Assembly: GCF_031624635.1 (NCBI RefSeq)
Contig: NZ_JAMQOQ010000002.1
Coordinates: forward strand, 868,001-932,000
DNA from: Halogeometricum sp. S3BR5-2
GTDB lineage: Archaea > Halobacteriota > Halobacteria > Halobacteriales > Haloferacaceae
DNA: 64,000 nt
Direction: 5' to 3'
Below the pieces are notes generated by a model. The model was not told where the DNA came from. It searched no databases and was given only the letters and a program-made list of their open reading frames with translations. The position numbers and the translations under genes were made by a program. How positions within the stretch are numbered: the first letter of the stretch is position 1; every line of letters begins with the position of its first letter. Below, one piece after another: positions 46,773-54,855 of this stretch.

Positions 46773-46862
46773 GGGCCGACGTCGGGTCTCCGACGACAAA
46801 TCCCTGCCGTCGGCGTCCCCGAGATGCGTAACGGCTATGGGTCGCCCTCCCAACGTCGAACC

Positions 46863-47186
46863 ATGGACTGGCCACACGACCCCGACGGCGAGGAGGGAAG
46901 CGAGGGGATGCGGAAGTACGGGCAGGCGATCATCGCGAAGAAGATAGACGAGGAGGAGGACTTCCCCCTCTCGCGCGACGAGTTCGTCGAGGCGCACGGC
47001 GACGAACCGATTCGAATCGACTACCAGACGGTCGTCCCCCTGCGGGACATCTTCGAGAACGTCGAACAGGAGGAGTTCGACGCGTTCGTCCCGTTCCACA
47101 AGGCCGTCGGACGGGCGATGCGCGAGTCGGGCTACTGGTTCTACGAGGGCGCCGACCAGTTCGTCAGCGGCAAGAAGAGCGCCTGA
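46863..47186 (+). CDS. DUF5785-like haloarchaeal protein
   Basis: 107 aa soluble protein, MDWPHDPDGEEGSEGMRKYG at the start, then a mixed alpha/beta core (RKYGQAIIAKKIDEEEDFPL, IRIDYQTVVPLRDIF). Assigned to DUF5785 from memory. Function unknown. Convergent with uridine kinase. Confidence 0.75.
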   Translation: MDWPHDPDGEEGSEGMRKYGQAIIAKKIDEEEDFPLSRDEFVEAHGDEPIRIDYQTVVPLRDIFENVEQEEFDAFVPFHKAVGRAMRESGYWFYEGADQFVSGKKSA

Positions 47187-47198
47187 ACGACCGGAAAG

Positions 47199-47855
47199 CT
47201 ATCGCTCCGGCGCCGGACGCTCCCAGTCGCGCACCGCGTCGCCGTGCACCTCCGCCATCACCTTCTCCTCTAAGAGGTTCACCGCGACGCTGTTTGCCCC
47301 TTCGGGGATGATGAGGTCGGCGTGCTTCTTCGAGGGTTCGATGAACTGCTCGTGCATCGGCTTCACCGTCGAGAGGTACTGGTCGATGACGCCCTCCAGG
47401 TCGCGCCCGCGTTCGATAACGTCGCGTTCGATTCGGCGGAGGATGCGCACGTCGGCGTCCGTCTCGACGTAGAGGCGCAGGTCGAACATCTCGTTGACGT
47501 CCTCGTCGTACAGCGCGAGGATACCCTCGACGATGATGACGTCCGTCGGTTCGACCGTCGTCGCCTCCTCCTTGCGGTTGTGTATCTCGAAGTCGTACAC
47601 CGGCATCTCGATGGGTTGCCCTTCCAGCAGCGTCGAGAGCTGTTCTCGCAGGAGGTCCCACTCGAACGCCGAGGGGTGGTCGTAGTTGACGTCCTCGCGT
47701 TCGGAGAGGTCGAGGTGGCTCAGGTCCTCGTAGTAGTTGTCGATGGGGATGCGCGTGACGGACTCGCCGACGTTCTCCGTGATGAGTCGCGCGACGGTTG
47801 TCTTGCCCGCGCCGGTCCCGCCAGCGATACCGATGACGAACGACGGGATGGTCAT
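47199..47855 (-). CDS. udk: Uridine kinase
   Basis: 218 aa P-loop kinase that phosphorylates uridine and cytidine for pyrimidine salvage. Walker A GIAGGTGAGKTTVA is at 9-22, IPIDNYYEDL near 36, NYDHPSAFEWDLL near 57 and RRIERDVIERGRDLEGVI near 150. Slightly longer than bacterial Udk, with standard order of motifs. Confidence 0.93.
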   Translation of the reverse strand: MTIPSFVIGIAGGTGAGKTTVARLITENVGESVTRIPIDNYYEDLSHLDLSEREDVNYDHPSAFEWDLLREQLSTLLEGQPIEMPVYDFEIHNRKEEATTVEPTDVIIVEGILALYDEDVNEMFDLRLYVETDADVRILRRIERDVIERGRDLEGVIDQYLSTVKPMHEQFIEPSKKHADLIIPEGANSVAVNLLEEKVMAEVHGDAVRDWERPAPER

Positions 47856-48002
47856 CGGTGGAGAACGCGTCCGCGCCGATTTGAGCGTGGCGGTTCGCCT
47901 CCGAAACGTCTCAGTTGCTCCCTCGTGTGTCAGTAACAACCACCAACGTTTCGCGGGTGTCAAACGTGCGAATTCGAGTCATTTTGGCGAACCGAAGGGT
48001 AG

Positions 48003-48010
48003 ATTTATAA
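48003..48010 (+). promoter_or_regulatory. TATA element for the Liv-type binding protein
   Basis: ATTTATAAA-like element (ATTTATAA 48003-48010) about 28 bases before the ATG at 48035; the transcript is predicted leaderless. One of the clearest TATA boxes in the window. Confidence 0.65.
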
Positions 48011-48034
48011 ACGGTAACTGCCTTTGCGAGTCAC

Positions 48035-49450
48035 ATGGCACGTGATATCGTACGGCGTGACTTTCTGAAAAGAGCGGGTGCGGCCGGGGCAGTCGGCGTG
48101 GTGGGGCTGTCGGGATGCATCGGAAGCCCGGACAACGGCGGGACCGAGACGCAGGGCGAGACCGAGACCGACGCCGGGTCGGGTACCGACGGGGGCGGCG
48201 AGACCGAGACCGAGGGTAGCGGCGGCGGCGGCAGCGGCGACGGACCGGACGGACTGGTCGTCATCGGCTACCCCGAGAGCGGGATTCAGCTGTTCCGCGA
48301 CTACTACAGCCAGTCCGACGGGGCCGAGGCCATCCTCATCCCCGACGGCCTGCGCGACGGGGCGCTCCCGGCGCAGGTCGGCAACGACATGGAGAACGTG
48401 ACGGGGACGGCGCCGGCGGCCGGCGGCCCGAACCAGGAGGCGTTCGTCTCCCTCTTCCAAGAGGAGTACGGCTCCGCGCCCGGCGTGTTCACCTCCCAGT
48501 CGTTCGACTCGGCGGCCATCGGCATCCTGGCGAACGCCGCGGCCGGCGAGAACAGCGGCCCCGCCATCAAAGAGCAGATGCGTCGCATCGCCAACCCCGG
48601 CGGGATGGAGGTCGGTCCGGACAACTTCGTCGAGGGCGTCGAGGCCGCCGCCAACGGCGAGGACGTCAACTATCAGGGGGCCTCCTCGTCGACGAACTTC
48701 GACCAGAACGGCGATCCCGCCTCCGCGGCGTACGCCATCTGGGAGTTCGAGGGCGTCGACTCGCAGTCGACCACGACCATCGAGACGCAGTCGTTCCAGG
48801 GGCAGAACCCCAACGGCGCCGGTCCCGCGGCGGACAGCGCGCCGGGCGGCAGCGACCGCGAGATATCGCTCGGAATCCTCCTGCCGGAGACCGGCGACCT
48901 CGCCTCGACCGGCCAGCCGATGATTCAGGCCGCGCAGATTCCCGGCATGCTGGTCAACGACGCGAACCCGGCGGGTCTGTCCGTCAATCAGCAGATAGAG
49001 GACACCCAGACCTCGCCGAGCGCGGGGGTCTCCGCGGCGCAGTCGCTCGCCAGCGCGGGCGTCCCGTTCGTCTGCGGGACGGCCTCCTCGGGCGTCAACG
49101 TTCCCGTCTCCCAGCAGGTGTTCATCCCCAACGAGATGATCGGCTGCTCGCCGTCGTCGACGGCGCTGTCGGTGTCGAACCTCGAGGACAACGACTACAT
49201 CTTCCGGACGGCGCCGTCGGACCGCCTGCAGGGCCGCGTGATGGCGCAGGTGATGGCCGAACGGCTGAACGCCTCGACGGTGTCGACGCTGTACGTCAAC
49301 AACGACTACGGTCAGCAACTCTCCGAACGCTTCTCCGGCGTCTTCGAGGACAGCTTCGACGGCGAGGTACTCACGCAGGTGGCGTTCAACATCGGCGAGT
49401 CGTCGTACTCCTCGGTCATCGAGTCGGCGCTGTCCGGGTCGAGCAACTGA
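48035..49450 (+). CDS. Liv-type amino-acid binding lipoprotein with circularly permuted domain order
   Basis: 471 aa. A Tat signal (VRRDFLKRAG) and lipobox LSGC (Cys28) predict an exported, lipid-anchored protein, followed by a Gly/Thr/Glu linker (29-70). Residues 71-257 match the C-terminal portion of LivJ-type (PBP type I) proteins, starting at the strand that is DFVYYGG in E. coli LivJ (here DGLVVIGYPESG). A second linker (about 258-272) leads to residues 273-471, which match the N-terminal portion (REISLGILLPETGDLAS, VPFVCGTASSGVNVPVSQQV, TLYVNNDYGQQLSE) and stop at SALSGSSN. No part of the fold appears missing; it is only reordered. It should bind a branched-chain amino acid or related ligand for the nearby livHMGF transporter (inference). 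Confidence 0.9.
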   Translation: MARDIVRRDFLKRAGAAGAVGVVGLSGCIGSPDNGGTETQGETETDAGSGTDGGGETETEGSGGGGSGDGPDGLVVIGYPESGIQLFRDYYSQSDGAEAILIPDGLRDGALPAQVGNDMENVTGTAPAAGGPNQEAFVSLFQEEYGSAPGVFTSQSFDSAAIGILANAAAGENSGPAIKEQMRRIANPGGMEVGPDNFVEGVEAAANGEDVNYQGASSSTNFDQNGDPASAAYAIWEFEGVDSQSTTTIETQSFQGQNPNGAGPAADSAPGGSDREISLGILLPETGDLASTGQPMIQAAQIPGMLVNDANPAGLSVNQQIEDTQTSPSAGVSAAQSLASAGVPFVCGTASSGVNVPVSQQVFIPNEMIGCSPSSTALSVSNLEDNDYIFRTAPSDRLQGRVMAQVMAERLNASTVSTLYVNNDYGQQLSERFSGVFEDSFDGEVLTQVAFNIGESSYSSVIESALSGSSN

Positions 49451-49466: not shown

Positions 49467-49472
49467 TTTTTT
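49467..49472 (+). terminator. T6 terminator after the binding protein
   Basis: A run of six T 17 bases after the stop at 49450, suitable for archaeal termination; it separates this gene from the next lipoprotein. Confidence 0.45.
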
Positions 49473-49568: not shown

Positions 49569-50687
49569 ATGAAGCGCCGCGCCCTCCTCTCCGCGCTGAG
49601 TTCTGCCTCGGTCTTCGGGACCGCGGGCTGTCTATCGGATTCGAACGGTTCGACCCCCTCGTCGGGGGCGACGAGTACGGCGACCGGAATCCCATCGACG
49701 ACGGGAACCGAAGCGTCCACGCCGGCAGCGACGGAGGCGAGCACGCCCCCCGAACCGGACGACCGAGTCGGAATCGGCGTCCTGAACGAGACCGAGACGG
49801 CGCACACCCTCTCGATTCGACTCGCGGACGCCGAGAGGGGGACGGAAATTCTCGCCGAGACGCTCGACGTCCGCGACGGAATCCATCGAGGCGTCGACGG
49901 GAGCGAAGTCGGCGAGGGGACCTACAGTGTCGTCGCCGACGTCGACGCCGGCGCGACGCTGGAGTACGAGTGGCGCGTGACTCCGCAACTCCGCCAACTC
50001 ACCTTGGTCCTCACGGAGGATGGCGGACTCGAACCGCGCCAACGAGCGACTGCAGACGTCGACGACGACCTCCCGTACACCGTCGACGGTGCGTCGAGCA
50101 TCCACGCGCCGCCGCACGCGGAAGTGAGGAACGACGGCGACGCGGACGCCGTCTTGACCCTCGCACTCGAACGCGAGGGCGAGCGGTTCTTCGAACACGC
50201 ATTCGAGGCGACGACCGACCGGGAAATCCACACGCCGCCGCTCGTCGCCTCCGCGGGGACGTACGACGTGGTCGCGGAGGCCGACGACGGCCGTCGGGCG
50301 ACTTACGAGTGGGAGATACCCGAGAACTATCACTGGCCGCTGTTGGCCGTCCTCGTCGACGAGGACGGCGTGCTGAGAGTCGGCTGTTCGTTCTCACGGG
50401 AGGCGCCCGTCTCGGTGGAGAACCGCGACGGAACCGACCGCGAACTCACGCTCCGACTCAGTTCGGGAGGGGATATCGTCGCCGAGGCGACGGAGTCCGT
50501 GCCGCCCGGCGGCCGAATCATCGCGCTCGATACCCCTATCGGCGGCGAGTACGAGTTGCACGCGGAGACCGCCGAGGGAACGGCCACGGCCGACTATTCG
50601 ACGTGTTACTGTTACAGCACGGATACGAGGGTCAGAATAGACGAGGGAGTTCCGAGTATCGACTCGCCTCGACTCGTCTGTGAGTGA
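49569..50687 (+). CDS. Secreted lipoprotein with three beta-sandwich-like repeats
   Basis: 372 aa. The start MKRRALLSALSSASVFGTAGC is a short Tat-like signal ending in a lipobox (Cys21 approx.), then a Ser/Thr linker. Three related units of about 95-105 residues follow; each has an N-terminal strand pattern with T-L-x-L/I-x-L (HTLSIRL, LTLALER, LTLRLSS), a middle E-x-T and a G-T/E-Y-x-V/L-x-A strand (GTYSVVADV, GTYDVVAEA, GEYELHAET). They resemble Ig-like or CARDB-type domains, but no family is sure. The last unit ends with a CYCYS motif. It lies between the Liv binding protein and the convergent livF. Confidence 0.75.
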   Translation: MKRRALLSALSSASVFGTAGCLSDSNGSTPSSGATSTATGIPSTTGTEASTPAATEASTPPEPDDRVGIGVLNETETAHTLSIRLADAERGTEILAETLDVRDGIHRGVDGSEVGEGTYSVVADVDAGATLEYEWRVTPQLRQLTLVLTEDGGLEPRQRATADVDDDLPYTVDGASSIHAPPHAEVRNDGDADAVLTLALEREGERFFEHAFEATTDREIHTPPLVASAGTYDVVAEADDGRRATYEWEIPENYHWPLLAVLVDEDGVLRVGCSFSREAPVSVENRDGTDRELTLRLSSGGDIVAEATESVPPGGRIIALDTPIGGEYELHAETAEGTATADYSTCYCYSTDTRVRIDEGVPSIDSPRLVCE

Positions 50688-50719: not shown

Positions 50720-51529
50720 CTACCCGCCGAGGAAGTCCCGGCGGACCTGCTCGTCCTCTAAGAGCGCCCGGCCGGAGTCGACGTAGCGGTTCTCGCCGTT
50801 GGCGAGGACGTAGCCGCGGTCGCAGCGCCTGAGCGCCTCCTTGGCGTTCTGCTCGACCATCAGTACCGCGGTGCCGGCCTCGTTTATCTCGTCTATCTTG
50901 TCGAACATCTCCTCGACCAGGTCCGGCGCGAGGCCGGCCGACGGTTCGTCGAGGAGGAGCAGCGACGGGTCGAGCATCAGCGCGCGACCCATCGCGAGCA
51001 TCTGCTGTTGCCCGCCGGACATCGTGCCGGCCTTCTGGTCGTCTCGTTCCTCTAAGATGGGGAAGCGCTCGAACACCATATCGAGAGCGTCCTGCGGCAC
51101 CTCGTCGAGGATGTACGCGCCCATCTCCAGGTTCTCGCGGACCGTGAGCGAGGCGAACACGTTGTCGTTCTGCGGCACGTAGCCGATTCCCTCGTGGATG
51201 ATGTCTTCGGGCTGTAAGCCGGTGACGTCCTCGCCCTCGAACGTCACCGTGCCGCCCATGAGGTTGGTGAGCCCGAAGACGGACTTCATCAGCGTCGACT
51301 TGCCCGCGCCGTTGGGGCCGACGATGGTGACGTACTCGCCGTCGTGGACGTCCATGTCGACGTCGGTGAGAATCTGTAAGTCGCCGTAACCCGCGTCGAG
51401 GTTCCGGACGCGGAGCAGTTCGGCGCCCTCGCTCTCGGGCGTCGACTCGGCGGTGGCGGCGCCGGCCGACGAGTCGGAGTCGGGCGACTCCGCGGCGTCG
51501 GTGTCGGCAGCGTCGGCGTCGGTGCTCAT
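50720..51529 (-). CDS. livF: Branched-chain amino-acid ABC transporter ATPase LivF
   Basis: 269 aa. A 38-residue acidic tail precedes the ABC domain: Walker A GPNGAGKSTLM, Q-loop, signature MSGGQQQMLAMGRAL and Walker B LLLLDEPSAGLAPD, with the LivF ending GRALLEDEQVRRDFLGG. It pairs with LivG under the LivH/LivM permeases. Start overlaps the livG stop by four bases. Confidence 0.95.
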   Translation of the reverse strand: MSTDADAADTDAAESPDSDSSAGAATAESTPESEGAELLRVRNLDAGYGDLQILTDVDMDVHDGEYVTIVGPNGAGKSTLMKSVFGLTNLMGGTVTFEGEDVTGLQPEDIIHEGIGYVPQNDNVFASLTVRENLEMGAYILDEVPQDALDMVFERFPILEERDDQKAGTMSGGQQQMLAMGRALMLDPSLLLLDEPSAGLAPDLVEEMFDKIDEINEAGTAVLMVEQNAKEALRRCDRGYVLANGENRYVDSGRALLEDEQVRRDFLGG

Positions 51530-52413
51530 ACGTTCCCCCCGAGGTACGCCTCGATGACGTCCTCGTTCGATTTGATGTCCGCGGGCGTCCCCTCGGTGAG
51601 GACGCGCCCCTGGTGCAGTACGATGACGTGCTCGCAGTTCTCCATGATGAGGTCCATGTCGTGTTCGACCAGGAGGAAGGTGTAGCCCTGGTCTTTCAGG
51701 GCGTGGATGTGTTCGAGCAGGCGCTTCTCCAGGGAGGGGTTGACGCCCGCGAACGGTTCGTCCAAGAGCAGCATGTCGGGGTCCGTCAGGAGCGCCCGCG
51801 CCATCTCCAAGAGTTTCCGCTGCCCGCCGGAGAGGTTGCCCGCGTACTCGTCGGCGATGTGGTCGATGTCGAAGAACTCCAGGACGTCCCAGACCCGGTC
51901 GAGGAGTTCCTCCTCCTGTGCGATGACGTCGTCGCGGACGCCCGGCGTCACCGACCGCCAGAGCTTCTCGCCGCGCTGTCCCTTCGGCGCGAGCATCATG
52001 TTCTCCAAGACCGTCATGTCTTCGAGTTCGCGCGCTATCTGGAACGTCCGGACGAGCCCCTTGTTCGCGATGGCGTGCGGTTCCATCCCGGTGATGTCCT
52101 CGTCGTTGAACGTCACCGTCCCCTCGTCGGGCGTGAGCATGCCGGTGATGAGGTTGAACGTCGTCGACTTACCGGCGCCGTTCGGGCCGATGAGCCCCGT
52201 CAGCGTGCCGCCCTCGACGGAGAACGACGCGTCGTCGACGGCGGTGATGCCGCCGAAGGACTTTCTGAGCCCCTCGACTTCGAGCGGGCGCTCCGCCGTC
52301 ACGTTCGGTCCGCCGCCGCCCAGAATGGGCGCGTCGGCCGGCGGTTCGGTCGCGTTCGGTCCCGTCTCGGTCGCATTCGCGTTCGTGTTCGCGTCGTTCT
52401 CGGTCTTACTCAT
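51526..52413 (-). CDS. livG: Branched-chain amino-acid ABC transporter ATPase LivG
   Basis: 295 aa; the first 40 residues are an Asn/Thr/Ala linker. Walker A GPNGAGKSTTFN, signature LSGGQRKLLEMARALL, Walker B MLLLDEPFAGVNP and the LivG C-terminal extension (VLHQGRVLTEGTPADIKSN, EAYLGG). Start at 52413 overlaps the livM end by eight bases. Confidence 0.95.
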   Translation of the reverse strand: MSKTENDANTNANATETGPNATEPPADAPILGGGGPNVTAERPLEVEGLRKSFGGITAVDDASFSVEGGTLTGLIGPNGAGKSTTFNLITGMLTPDEGTVTFNDEDITGMEPHAIANKGLVRTFQIARELEDMTVLENMMLAPKGQRGEKLWRSVTPGVRDDVIAQEEELLDRVWDVLEFFDIDHIADEYAGNLSGGQRKLLEMARALLTDPDMLLLDEPFAGVNPSLEKRLLEHIHALKDQGYTFLLVEHDMDLIMENCEHVIVLHQGRVLTEGTPADIKSNEDVIEAYLGGNV

Positions 52414-53752
52414 TGCGCTCGCCCCCGTCTCCGTCGTCGCTCTCCGTCCCGCCGTCCGTCGCGGCGGCCCGCGCATGGTTCGCCGTGAGCGGGATGCCCG
52501 CGGCCGTCTCCTTGCGGTGGCCGAGCATCCCCTCGGGGCGGTTGTGCATCAACCAGATGAGCACCAGCCCCATCAGGACGAGCTGTAACTGTCGGATGCT
52601 GTCGACGGTGTAGTAGAACAGCGGCGCCGGGTTGAGATTCGAGATGAGCGGCGCCACGGCCGGGCCGAAACTCGACGGCGCGTTGAACGCCGGGAGCGCC
52701 GTGTCGACGAGGTTCTTGAAGTAGCGCGGCCCCTGGTACAGCACCGCCGCGAAGACGGCGCCGCCGAGCACGCTCCCCGTGTTCGACCCCGCGCCGCCGA
52801 TGATGAGCGCTATCCAGACGAAGAAGGTGATACGCGGGCGGAACGTGTTCGGCGTCACCGCCCCCTGCGTCATGAACCAGAGGATGCCCGCCAGTCCCAT
52901 CAGCGCGCACCCGAGCATGAACGACTTGATCTTGAACTGGTTCGTGTTCTTTCCGAGGGAGTTCGCCACGTCCTCGTCCTCGCGGATGGCCTTGAGGACG
53001 CGGCCGAACGGCGACTCGCCGGTGCGCTTCAACAGCCAGTAGTACGCCGCGACGAACAGGAGTAAGACGAGACCGTACACCAGTCCGTCGACGACCGGTT
53101 TCGGGTTGGTCGGGACGATGGCGCCGAACGCGTCGACGAAACCGAGGTAGGCGCCCCACAGCCCGAACGTCTCGAAGAACGCCTGTAGGGGGTCGGTGAA
53201 GTCGAGGATGAGCCCCGACCCGCCGCCGAAGCCGACGCGGTTGCCGAACAGGGTGAACTGCTGGAACTCCCCCGAGAGGAAGCTGAAGCGAACGATTTCC
53301 GACATCGCGATGGTGACGATGGCGAGGTAGTCGGCCCGCAACCTGAGCGCCGGCAGGGCGACCACGAGTCCGAGCAGTGCCGCGGCGACCATGCCGACGG
53401 CGATGCCGACGACGAGAGGGAGGCCGAGGCCGCCCACCTGCGCCGCGCCGCCGGACTGGTAGACCGGCTTCGACACCAGCGCCATCACGTAGATGCCGAC
53501 GGCCATGAAGCCGACGATGCCGATGTTGAAGAGTCCGGTGTAGCCCCAGTGGAGGTTCAGCGCCAGCGCCAGCATCGCGAAGACGCCGATGTAGAACGTC
53601 AACACCGCGACGGTGTTGAGTTGGCCGCGCAGCGAGTAGCCGAGGCCGACCCCGGCGAGCACGTACGCGGCGTACAGCACCACGAGGGCGGCGACGATGA
53701 GGCCGGCGTCGCCGCCGGGCACTCGGTCCGCGAGGTCCTCGCGGACGCTCAT
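52406..53752 (-). CDS. livM: Branched-chain amino-acid ABC transporter permease LivM
   Basis: 448 aa inner-membrane subunit with about ten helices. Conserved segments: ALALNLHWGYTGLFNIG near residue 65, LPALRLRADYLAIVTIA near 145, and the cytoplasmic coupling loop SPFGRVLKAIREDEDVANSLG near 250. The last 60 residues are hydrophilic and acidic. Overlaps both neighbours (ATGA with livH). Confidence 0.95.
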   Translation of the reverse strand: MSVREDLADRVPGGDAGLIVAALVVLYAAYVLAGVGLGYSLRGQLNTVAVLTFYIGVFAMLALALNLHWGYTGLFNIGIVGFMAVGIYVMALVSKPVYQSGGAAQVGGLGLPLVVGIAVGMVAAALLGLVVALPALRLRADYLAIVTIAMSEIVRFSFLSGEFQQFTLFGNRVGFGGGSGLILDFTDPLQAFFETFGLWGAYLGFVDAFGAIVPTNPKPVVDGLVYGLVLLLFVAAYYWLLKRTGESPFGRVLKAIREDEDVANSLGKNTNQFKIKSFMLGCALMGLAGILWFMTQGAVTPNTFRPRITFFVWIALIIGGAGSNTGSVLGGAVFAAVLYQGPRYFKNLVDTALPAFNAPSSFGPAVAPLISNLNPAPLFYYTVDSIRQLQLVLMGLVLIWLMHNRPEGMLGHRKETAAGIPLTANHARAAATDGGTESDDGDGGERNE

Positions 53753-54855
53753 GCGGTCGACCTCCCGCTGAACAGTCCCGACGGCTTCACGAGCAGGATG
53801 ACGATCATCACGAAGAACGCCGCCGCGCGGGCGAACGCCGAGGGAATCCAGATGACCGACAGCGACGCCGTCAGTCCGATGACGAGGCCGCCCGCGATGG
53901 CGCCGTACACCGACCCGATGCCGCCGAGGATGACGGCCGCGAAGATCAGGAGGAGAAGCAGCCAGCCGTCGTTGAAGCCGAGCGTCCCCTTCCAGAGCAC
54001 GAACATGTAGCCGGCGACGCCGGTGAGGCCGCCGCCGATGATCCACACCGCGCGGACGACCCGTTCGGTCGGGATGCCCGTGACGCGCGCGAGGTCCTCG
54101 TTGTCGGCCATCGCCCGCATCGCCTTGCCCAGTTTCGTCCGCTGGAGCAGGAGGTGTACGCCGAGCATCAGACCGCCGGCGACGACGACGAGCGTCAGGT
54201 CGTGCATGTTGATGCGGACCGCCCCGTCGACGAAGTACGCCGAGACGGCCGGCGGTTGCGCCGTCGTCCCGCGCACGTCCGACCCGAAGACGAACTGCAT
54301 CATGTAGCGGAGCGCGAACGCGACGCCGATGCTCGTGATGAGCAGCGTGATGCCGTCCTCGTCGCGGATGGGCCGGAAGATGAACCGGTCGACCCCCAGC
54401 GAGAGGGCGATAGTGAACGCTCCGGCGACGACGAGGCCGGCCACGACGGCTATCGGCGTCCCCGTGATACCGATACCGAGCGCGCCGCCGAACACCGACC
54501 CGCCGGCGCCGACGAGCAGCAGCGACCCGATGTCGGCGCGCCCGAGGCCCGCCAGTAGGTAGGTCGTCCCCCACCCGGAGAACGCCCCCGCGGTGATGTA
54601 GTCGCCGTGCGCGAAGTTCGCGAAGTTCAGGATGCTGTACGTCATCGAGAGTCCGATACCCGCTAACCCGATTACCAGCCCACGCATGAGGCCGTCCCAT
54701 ACCAGTGACCCCACGTCACTGAATGCAGTCCGCCCGGAGGCGAGACCGGCGACGAGGTCTCCGAAGAGGAGAACCCCGACGATGGCCAGAAGAAGCGCCC
54801 CGGGTCTGTCGACTGCGAACCGGCGACCGCGTGAGTAGGTCTCAGCGATACCCAT
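53749..54855 (-). CDS. livH: Branched-chain amino-acid ABC transporter permease LivH
   Basis: 368 aa, about nine helices. The LivH marks GLMRGLVIGLAGIGLSMTYSILNFANFAHGDYI (in parts: GLSMTYSILNF and ANFAHGD) and TKLGKAMRAMADNEDLARVTG near 235 are clear. First gene of the livHMGF operon; it has a TATA element upstream. Confidence 0.95.
   Translation of the reverse strand: MGIAETYSRGRRFAVDRPGALLLAIVGVLLFGDLVAGLASGRTAFSDVGSLVWDGLMRGLVIGLAGIGLSMTYSILNFANFAHGDYITAGAFSGWGTTYLLAGLGRADIGSLLLVGAGGSVFGGALGIGITGTPIAVVAGLVVAGAFTIALSLGVDRFIFRPIRDEDGITLLITSIGVAFALRYMMQFVFGSDVRGTTAQPPAVSAYFVDGAVRINMHDLTLVVVAGGLMLGVHLLLQRTKLGKAMRAMADNEDLARVTGIPTERVVRAVWIIGGGLTGVAGYMFVLWKGTLGFNDGWLLLLLIFAAVILGGIGSVYGAIAGGLVIGLTASLSVIWIPSAFARAAAFFVMIVILLVKPSGLFSGRSTA

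Follow-up and report, generated by a model that had tools for sequence, protein, structure and literature searches.

Does the gene at 48035-49450 on the forward strand of the window (the whole 64,000-nucleotide stretch of Halogeometricum sp. S3BR5-2 analysed here) encode a Liv-type substrate-binding protein whose two halves stand in swapped order, and if so, how often and by what route has such a chain arisen? Natural circular permutations are generally regarded as ancient one-off events that distinguish distantly related homologues. The interval coincides exactly with an intact open reading frame of 471 aa beginning at an ATG, and its product matches the binding-protein family Peripla_BP_6 (PF13458) with E=2.8e-25 and 90 bits against a cut-off of 31.7, which places it among the homologues of that family.

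The order of the profile matches bears directly on the first part of this question. Residues 276-465 correspond to Peripla_BP_6 positions 1-186 of 343, a half that contributes 70 bits alone, and residues 119-239, upstream of that match, correspond to ANF_receptor positions 233-351, with a weak score of 16 bits. Because C-terminal profile positions match upstream of N-terminal ones, the profile order is reversed, and phmmer comparison with the Leu/Ile/Val-binding structures 3ipc and 4gnr gives the same reversal. Canonical haloarchaeal relatives (L057, L125, L126 and others), at ~45-61% identity per half, run N then C, the one part following the other with at most a few intervening residues. At the cut, the canonical chain reads ...SSYTSKLQSAL-dd-PDLLVVIGYPASG; the permuted protein starts with PDGLVVIGYPESG and ends with SSYSSVIESALSGSSN, so that its start motif PDxLVVIGYPxSG is the canonical continuation past SSYTSKLQSAL-dd- and its end reads ...SSYSSVIESALS. 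The homologous segments are therefore swapped and the old termini joined, rather than running in the canonical N-to-C order. The first-pass annotation of this DNA had proposed just such a swap, with residues 71-257 as the C-terminal part and 273-471 as the N-terminal part; the Pfam and PDB matches together with the canonical haloarchaeal orthologues bear out the order, separate alignment of each half to canonical relatives yields the same assignment, and those relatives place the cut at the same point. At the level of sequence, the product is thus confirmed as a true circular permutant of a Liv-type (Peripla_BP_6) substrate-binding Tat-type lipoprotein, and as a member of that family by descent. 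The three other Peripla_BP_6 proteins of the window's own genome are all canonical.

The individual parts of the gene, all on the forward strand, can be followed from its promoter to its terminator. An archaeal TATA-like box (TTTATAAA, 48004..48011) is read ~24-31 nt 5' of the ATG, and the transcript probably has little or no leader. Residues 1-28 (48035..48118) form a Tat-type signal peptide with the sequence MARDIVRRDFLKRAGAAGAVGVVGLSGC, in which a twin-arginine signal and lipobox read as RRDFLKRAG...LSGC, with Cys28 in the lipobox LSGC, supply the export signal expected of Liv-type proteins and the lipobox anchor expected of those in archaea; the Pfam TAT_signal match to this peptide is weak and falls under its cut-off. 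There follows a hypervariable tether rich in Gly/Ser/Thr/Glu (residues 29-70, 48119..48244), which differs among orthologues in both length and sequence. The former C-terminal segment, now first (residues 71-257, 48245..48805), contains the ANF_receptor 233-351 match and is 45-60% identical to canonical C-terminal halves. Next comes the permutation linker (residues 258-272, 48806..48850), which connects the former C-terminus with the former N-terminus; it is without counterpart in canonical orthologues, in agreement with the ~15-residue linker originally postulated, and keeps the pattern FEGxNPxGxGxxADSxPGGxxR in the window's clade. The former N-terminal segment, now last (residues 273-471, 48851..49447), carries the Peripla_BP_6 1-186 match and superposes on 4n0q_B, and a terminator-like T6 run lies 3' of the stop codon at 49467..49472. 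The frame, TATA-like box, signal and terminator-like run of the annotation were thus all recovered by reading the sequence.

For the predicted fold, AlphaFold was given window residues 68-471, 18 permuted orthologues and two L057 segments. The resulting model of the permuted protein is one compact fold (pLDDT 79.6, pTM 0.80), of which residues 208-404 superpose on residues 23-217 of 4n0q_B (Z 13.7, rmsd 3.0, 194 residues). Sequential aligners superposed mainly residues 275-471, that is, the N segment, on LivJ-type structures (Z 12-14); since such aligners cannot fit both segments together, the identity of the whole-chain fold is supported by pTM and homology. The canonical L057 model, at pLDDT 52, was too poor for comparison. 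The structure check suggested in the annotation, whether the two segments would form one two-lobed fold, is accordingly answered in part, with a compact prediction and an N segment that fits LivJ-type structures, and with a superposition that covers mainly residues 275-471.

Downstream of the gene, on the other strand, lie genes for a LivF-type ATPase (50720..51529; Pfam ABC_tran), a LivG-type ATPase (51526..52476; ABC_tran and BCA_ABC_TP_C), a LivM-type permease (52406..53749; BPD_transp_2) and a LivH-type permease (53749..54855; BPD_transp_2), so that binding protein and transporter are convergent and the genetic linkage to LivH, LivM, LivG and LivF typical of Liv-type proteins is present. 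This locus is conserved: in many genomes the canonical gene and its permuted counterpart stand in one syntenic position, with a shared convergent LivFGMH and two shared upstream neighbours, a kinase-like ORF at 47199-47963 (working label 'udk') and an ORF at 46824-47186. From homology and gene context, the protein presumably serves amino-acid-type uptake. Between the binding-protein gene and LivF, the window also holds an ORF at 49569-50687 whose product, with the signal MKRRALLSALSS...AGCLSDS, is another putative lipoprotein, which has no Pfam match and whose counterparts, at 37-52% identity and in the same place, occur only in some Haloferax.

We then asked how widely the swapped order occurs in a sample of 391 genomes of class Halobacteria, 306 of which have a match to the window protein at E<=1e-30. 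By best score, the full-length permuted form is present in 94 + 74, or ~168, of these 306, across dozens of genera; 134 have canonical-order matches only, three have second-generation forms (described below) and in one the permuted gene is interrupted by an insertion. These classes were drawn from a gap in scores, which separates the last canonical-only value, 1e-66, from the first permuted one, 1e-103, and were checked on ~140 opened loci. Permuted and canonical family members occur together within four genomes (G017, G054, G397 and G402), where the canonical members are frequently accompanied by separate Liv genes, and a single genus-level group (g56) includes canonical, permuted and twice-permuted orders as well as two unrelated permuted lineages. 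Among relatives in Halogeometricum, Halospeciosus and Haloferax, whole-gene dN/dS is 0.15-0.24, with both halves and the linker under purifying selection and the N-terminal tether less constrained in two of three pairs. A frame kept across many genera, these dN/dS values and one compact predicted fold agree with the annotation's impression that the gene is functional.

Genomes with intermediate scores were also searched for other permutation sites. Three of them (G394, G402 and G329) proved to carry second permutants and three others interrupted or broken genes: in G104 (L238:8076-11000) a clade III permuted gene is split by a ~1.4 kb insertion encoding a transposase-like ORF, in G300 (L272:6004-7292) a canonical orthologue is apparently frameshifted in its C segment, possibly through sequencing error in a draft genome, and in G096 a canonical gene is broken by a contig end. 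Separately, G336 holds a second permuted copy ~11 kb from the first (L087:15437 region), with a run of N in its 3' part.

To count origins, each protein was split into N and C segments, each segment was aligned in canonical order, and rows were labelled by chain order. On the resulting binding-protein tree, permuted rows fall into four clades: clade I, which contains the window; clade II (L118, L195, L196, L199, L240); clade III (L119, L201, L238, L239, L242-L244); and clade IV, consisting of L116 alone. Forcing all permuted rows into one clade costs 79.6 log units and is rejected (AU p=0.0057, AU tests here being based on quick trees); in a sparser earlier set a single permuted clade was not rejected (p=0.083). 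Joining clades I and III is likewise rejected (p=0.0016), as is joining II and III (p=0.032), and joining I and II is not rejected by the binding protein alone (p=0.088). Clades I, II and III also stay separate on the N half or the C half alone, which require 4 and 3 order changes, so that the separation does not stem from chimeric joining of halves. The partner genes LivHMGF provide an independent witness: their tree (1280 columns), computed after removal of ten rows that were long or had swapped permeases, again separates clades I, II and III on strongly supported branches, requires at least 3 order changes and rejects I+II (p=2e-8). With those ten rows included, the clade I permeases no longer form one clade, indicating that some gene transfer has occurred; the permease tree is for this reason an imperfect witness, with permeases swapped in some permuted rows.

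A different history, in which one ancient permutation was followed by several reversions to canonical order, either by recombining with a canonical copy or by permuting back, would also account for the cut position, which is identical in every permuted clade examined. The gene transfer just described and the co-occurrence of both forms in G017 and G054 also lend it some plausibility, and second-generation forms show that the N-C junction can regain its canonical spacing. Against it, distant outgroups are all canonical, so that under a canonical root a history of four gains requires 4 changes and one with a single gain requires more; the linkers of clades I, II and III are unlike one another; and a relic linker at the C-terminus was seen in second-generation forms only, in none of the canonical genes. 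We consider a single origin with reversions unlikely, though a serious alternative, and infer independent gains instead: with canonical outgroups, a history of three or four permutation gains is the cheapest reading of the sequences, although a fourth origin is not firmly claimed because clade IV is one long-branched row. Still less probable is a history of fission and fusion, in which the halves were once separate genes later re-fused in the other order. The cut does fall in a loop flanked by two secondary-structure elements, and each half is a compact unit, but none of the genomes examined shows split halves at the locus, truncation there being due to the G104 insertion sequence, the G300 frameshift and the G096 contig end, and separate halves would be unlikely to work alone because both segments contribute to each lobe. 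That the swapped order might be an assembly artefact or a pseudogene can for practical purposes be dismissed: the search for homologues called for by the annotation returned the same order in ~170 of the 391 sampled haloarchaeal genomes, independent genomes that rule out the assembly rearrangement it had named as a danger, and the frame is intact and under purifying selection.

Permutation did not stop at this first loop. Five genomes in two lineages, G402 and G394 of one genus and G329, G410 and G414 of another family, carry second-generation genes (L234:8191-9504, L235:8247-9563, L236:8393-9754, L274:6184-7671 and L275:6895-8334), all at the same locus and adjoining LivFGMH. Their products begin with the signal, continue with the N segment from residue 42 and then the C segment, and close with the clade I linker and N segment 1-39, an order which places the second cut between helix 1 and strand 2, restores the original N-C junction with canonical spacing (…NEALSDDPDTLVVIGYPEDG) and leaves the first permutation linker in place near the C-terminus. 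Both second-generation groups are nested within clade I and joining them is rejected (p=0.00045), from which it follows that a permuted gene was re-permuted twice at one second loop. On the evidence of these alignments and trees, the gene is best read as a recurrently and serially permuted orthologue.

Taken together, these observations make it very probable that the gene supplies a Liv-type (HAAT) ABC importer with its lipid-anchored substrate-binding protein, and that this protein is a circular permutant with bridged old termini and a presumably retained two-lobed fold. The C segment comes first, a short linker spans the old termini and the N segment comes last, and the ordinary two-lobed clamp fold should persist, since a bridge closes the old ends and the new ones fall within a surface loop of lobe 2; the protein would work with the permeases and ATPases encoded just downstream on the other strand. 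The first cut would shift the entry of the membrane tether from lobe 1 to lobe 2, a geometric effect for which we take the lobe assignment from LivJ topology. We think it rather probable that at least three independent permutations occurred at the same loop and at least two more at the second, which would make chain order an evolutionarily labile trait in this family, with the altered orders possibly kept for moving the lipid anchor between lobes; it is also possible that the changed tether position is neutral.

Each event would have proceeded by tandem duplication, fusion and then trimming, the scheme known as permutation by duplication (review PMC3320104), and tandem duplication followed by trimming appears the likeliest origin of each permutation. 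Adjacent tandem permuted copies in two genomes of one genus, G343 and G152 (L104:7850-10700 and L105:7800-10700), show that tandem duplication of the binding-protein gene occurs. A search for fused intermediates, N-C-N-C or N-C-N, and for gene remnants in flanking DNA found neither, so that of the route first proposed, tandem duplication with loss of the outer halves, the capacity for duplication is documented by separate tandem copies and the fused stage is not. In L104 and L105 alike, one of the two copies shows no clear lipobox Cys (…GLMGTLQQGGG / …GLMGSLQQDGG).

Orthologues as close as these, sharing a locus yet showing three chain orders, offer direct tests of how permutation arises, and allow one to ask why a loop is used repeatedly, whether the linker has a role and whether tethering the other lobe affects transport. 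They constitute a natural experiment, in salt-loving archaea, on how proteins survive cutting and rejoining, and serve as a warning to annotation pipelines that half-length Pfam matches here do not equal gene fragments. The annotation had known of no natural permutation in this transporter family, and a limited search of open-access literature, outside which most subscription journals lie, likewise found no report of a naturally permuted Liv-type binding protein, nor any permuted protein from haloarchaea.

Compared with LivJ/LivK-type proteins (PF13458, type I fold; PDB 4n0q, 3ip5, 3td9, 4gnr), the permuted protein is alike in both segments and in its Liv partners, but has C-then-N order, an extra linker and its tether on the other lobe. 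The canonical haloarchaeal orthologues (L057, L125, L126, L132, L205) share the locus, the convergent orientation and ~45-61% identity per half, and differ in having N-C order without an internal linker. The type I binding-protein fold is malleable (PMC9815098, PMC10601554): type II binding proteins are thought to derive from type I by domain dislocation (Fukami-Kobayashi 1999, as related in PMC9815098), and halves of ribose-binding protein that were permuted in the laboratory do fold (PMC9815098). The former is an ancient change of core topology and the latter a laboratory construct, whereas the case described here is a recent whole-chain permutation. The NeIle sensors (PDB 8z0g, 9jti) are Liv-type proteins with rearranged connections that still function, but they are man-made, with a fluorescent protein inserted. 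In other families, natural circular permutants include saposin/swaposin, DNA methyltransferases and transhydrogenases (PMC3320104), and in the methyltransferases several orders and recurrent permutation with intermediates are known (PMC3320104). In contrast to these, the permutations described here lie within one orthologous locus and recur at one site, and the second permutation retains the linker of the first as a fossil.
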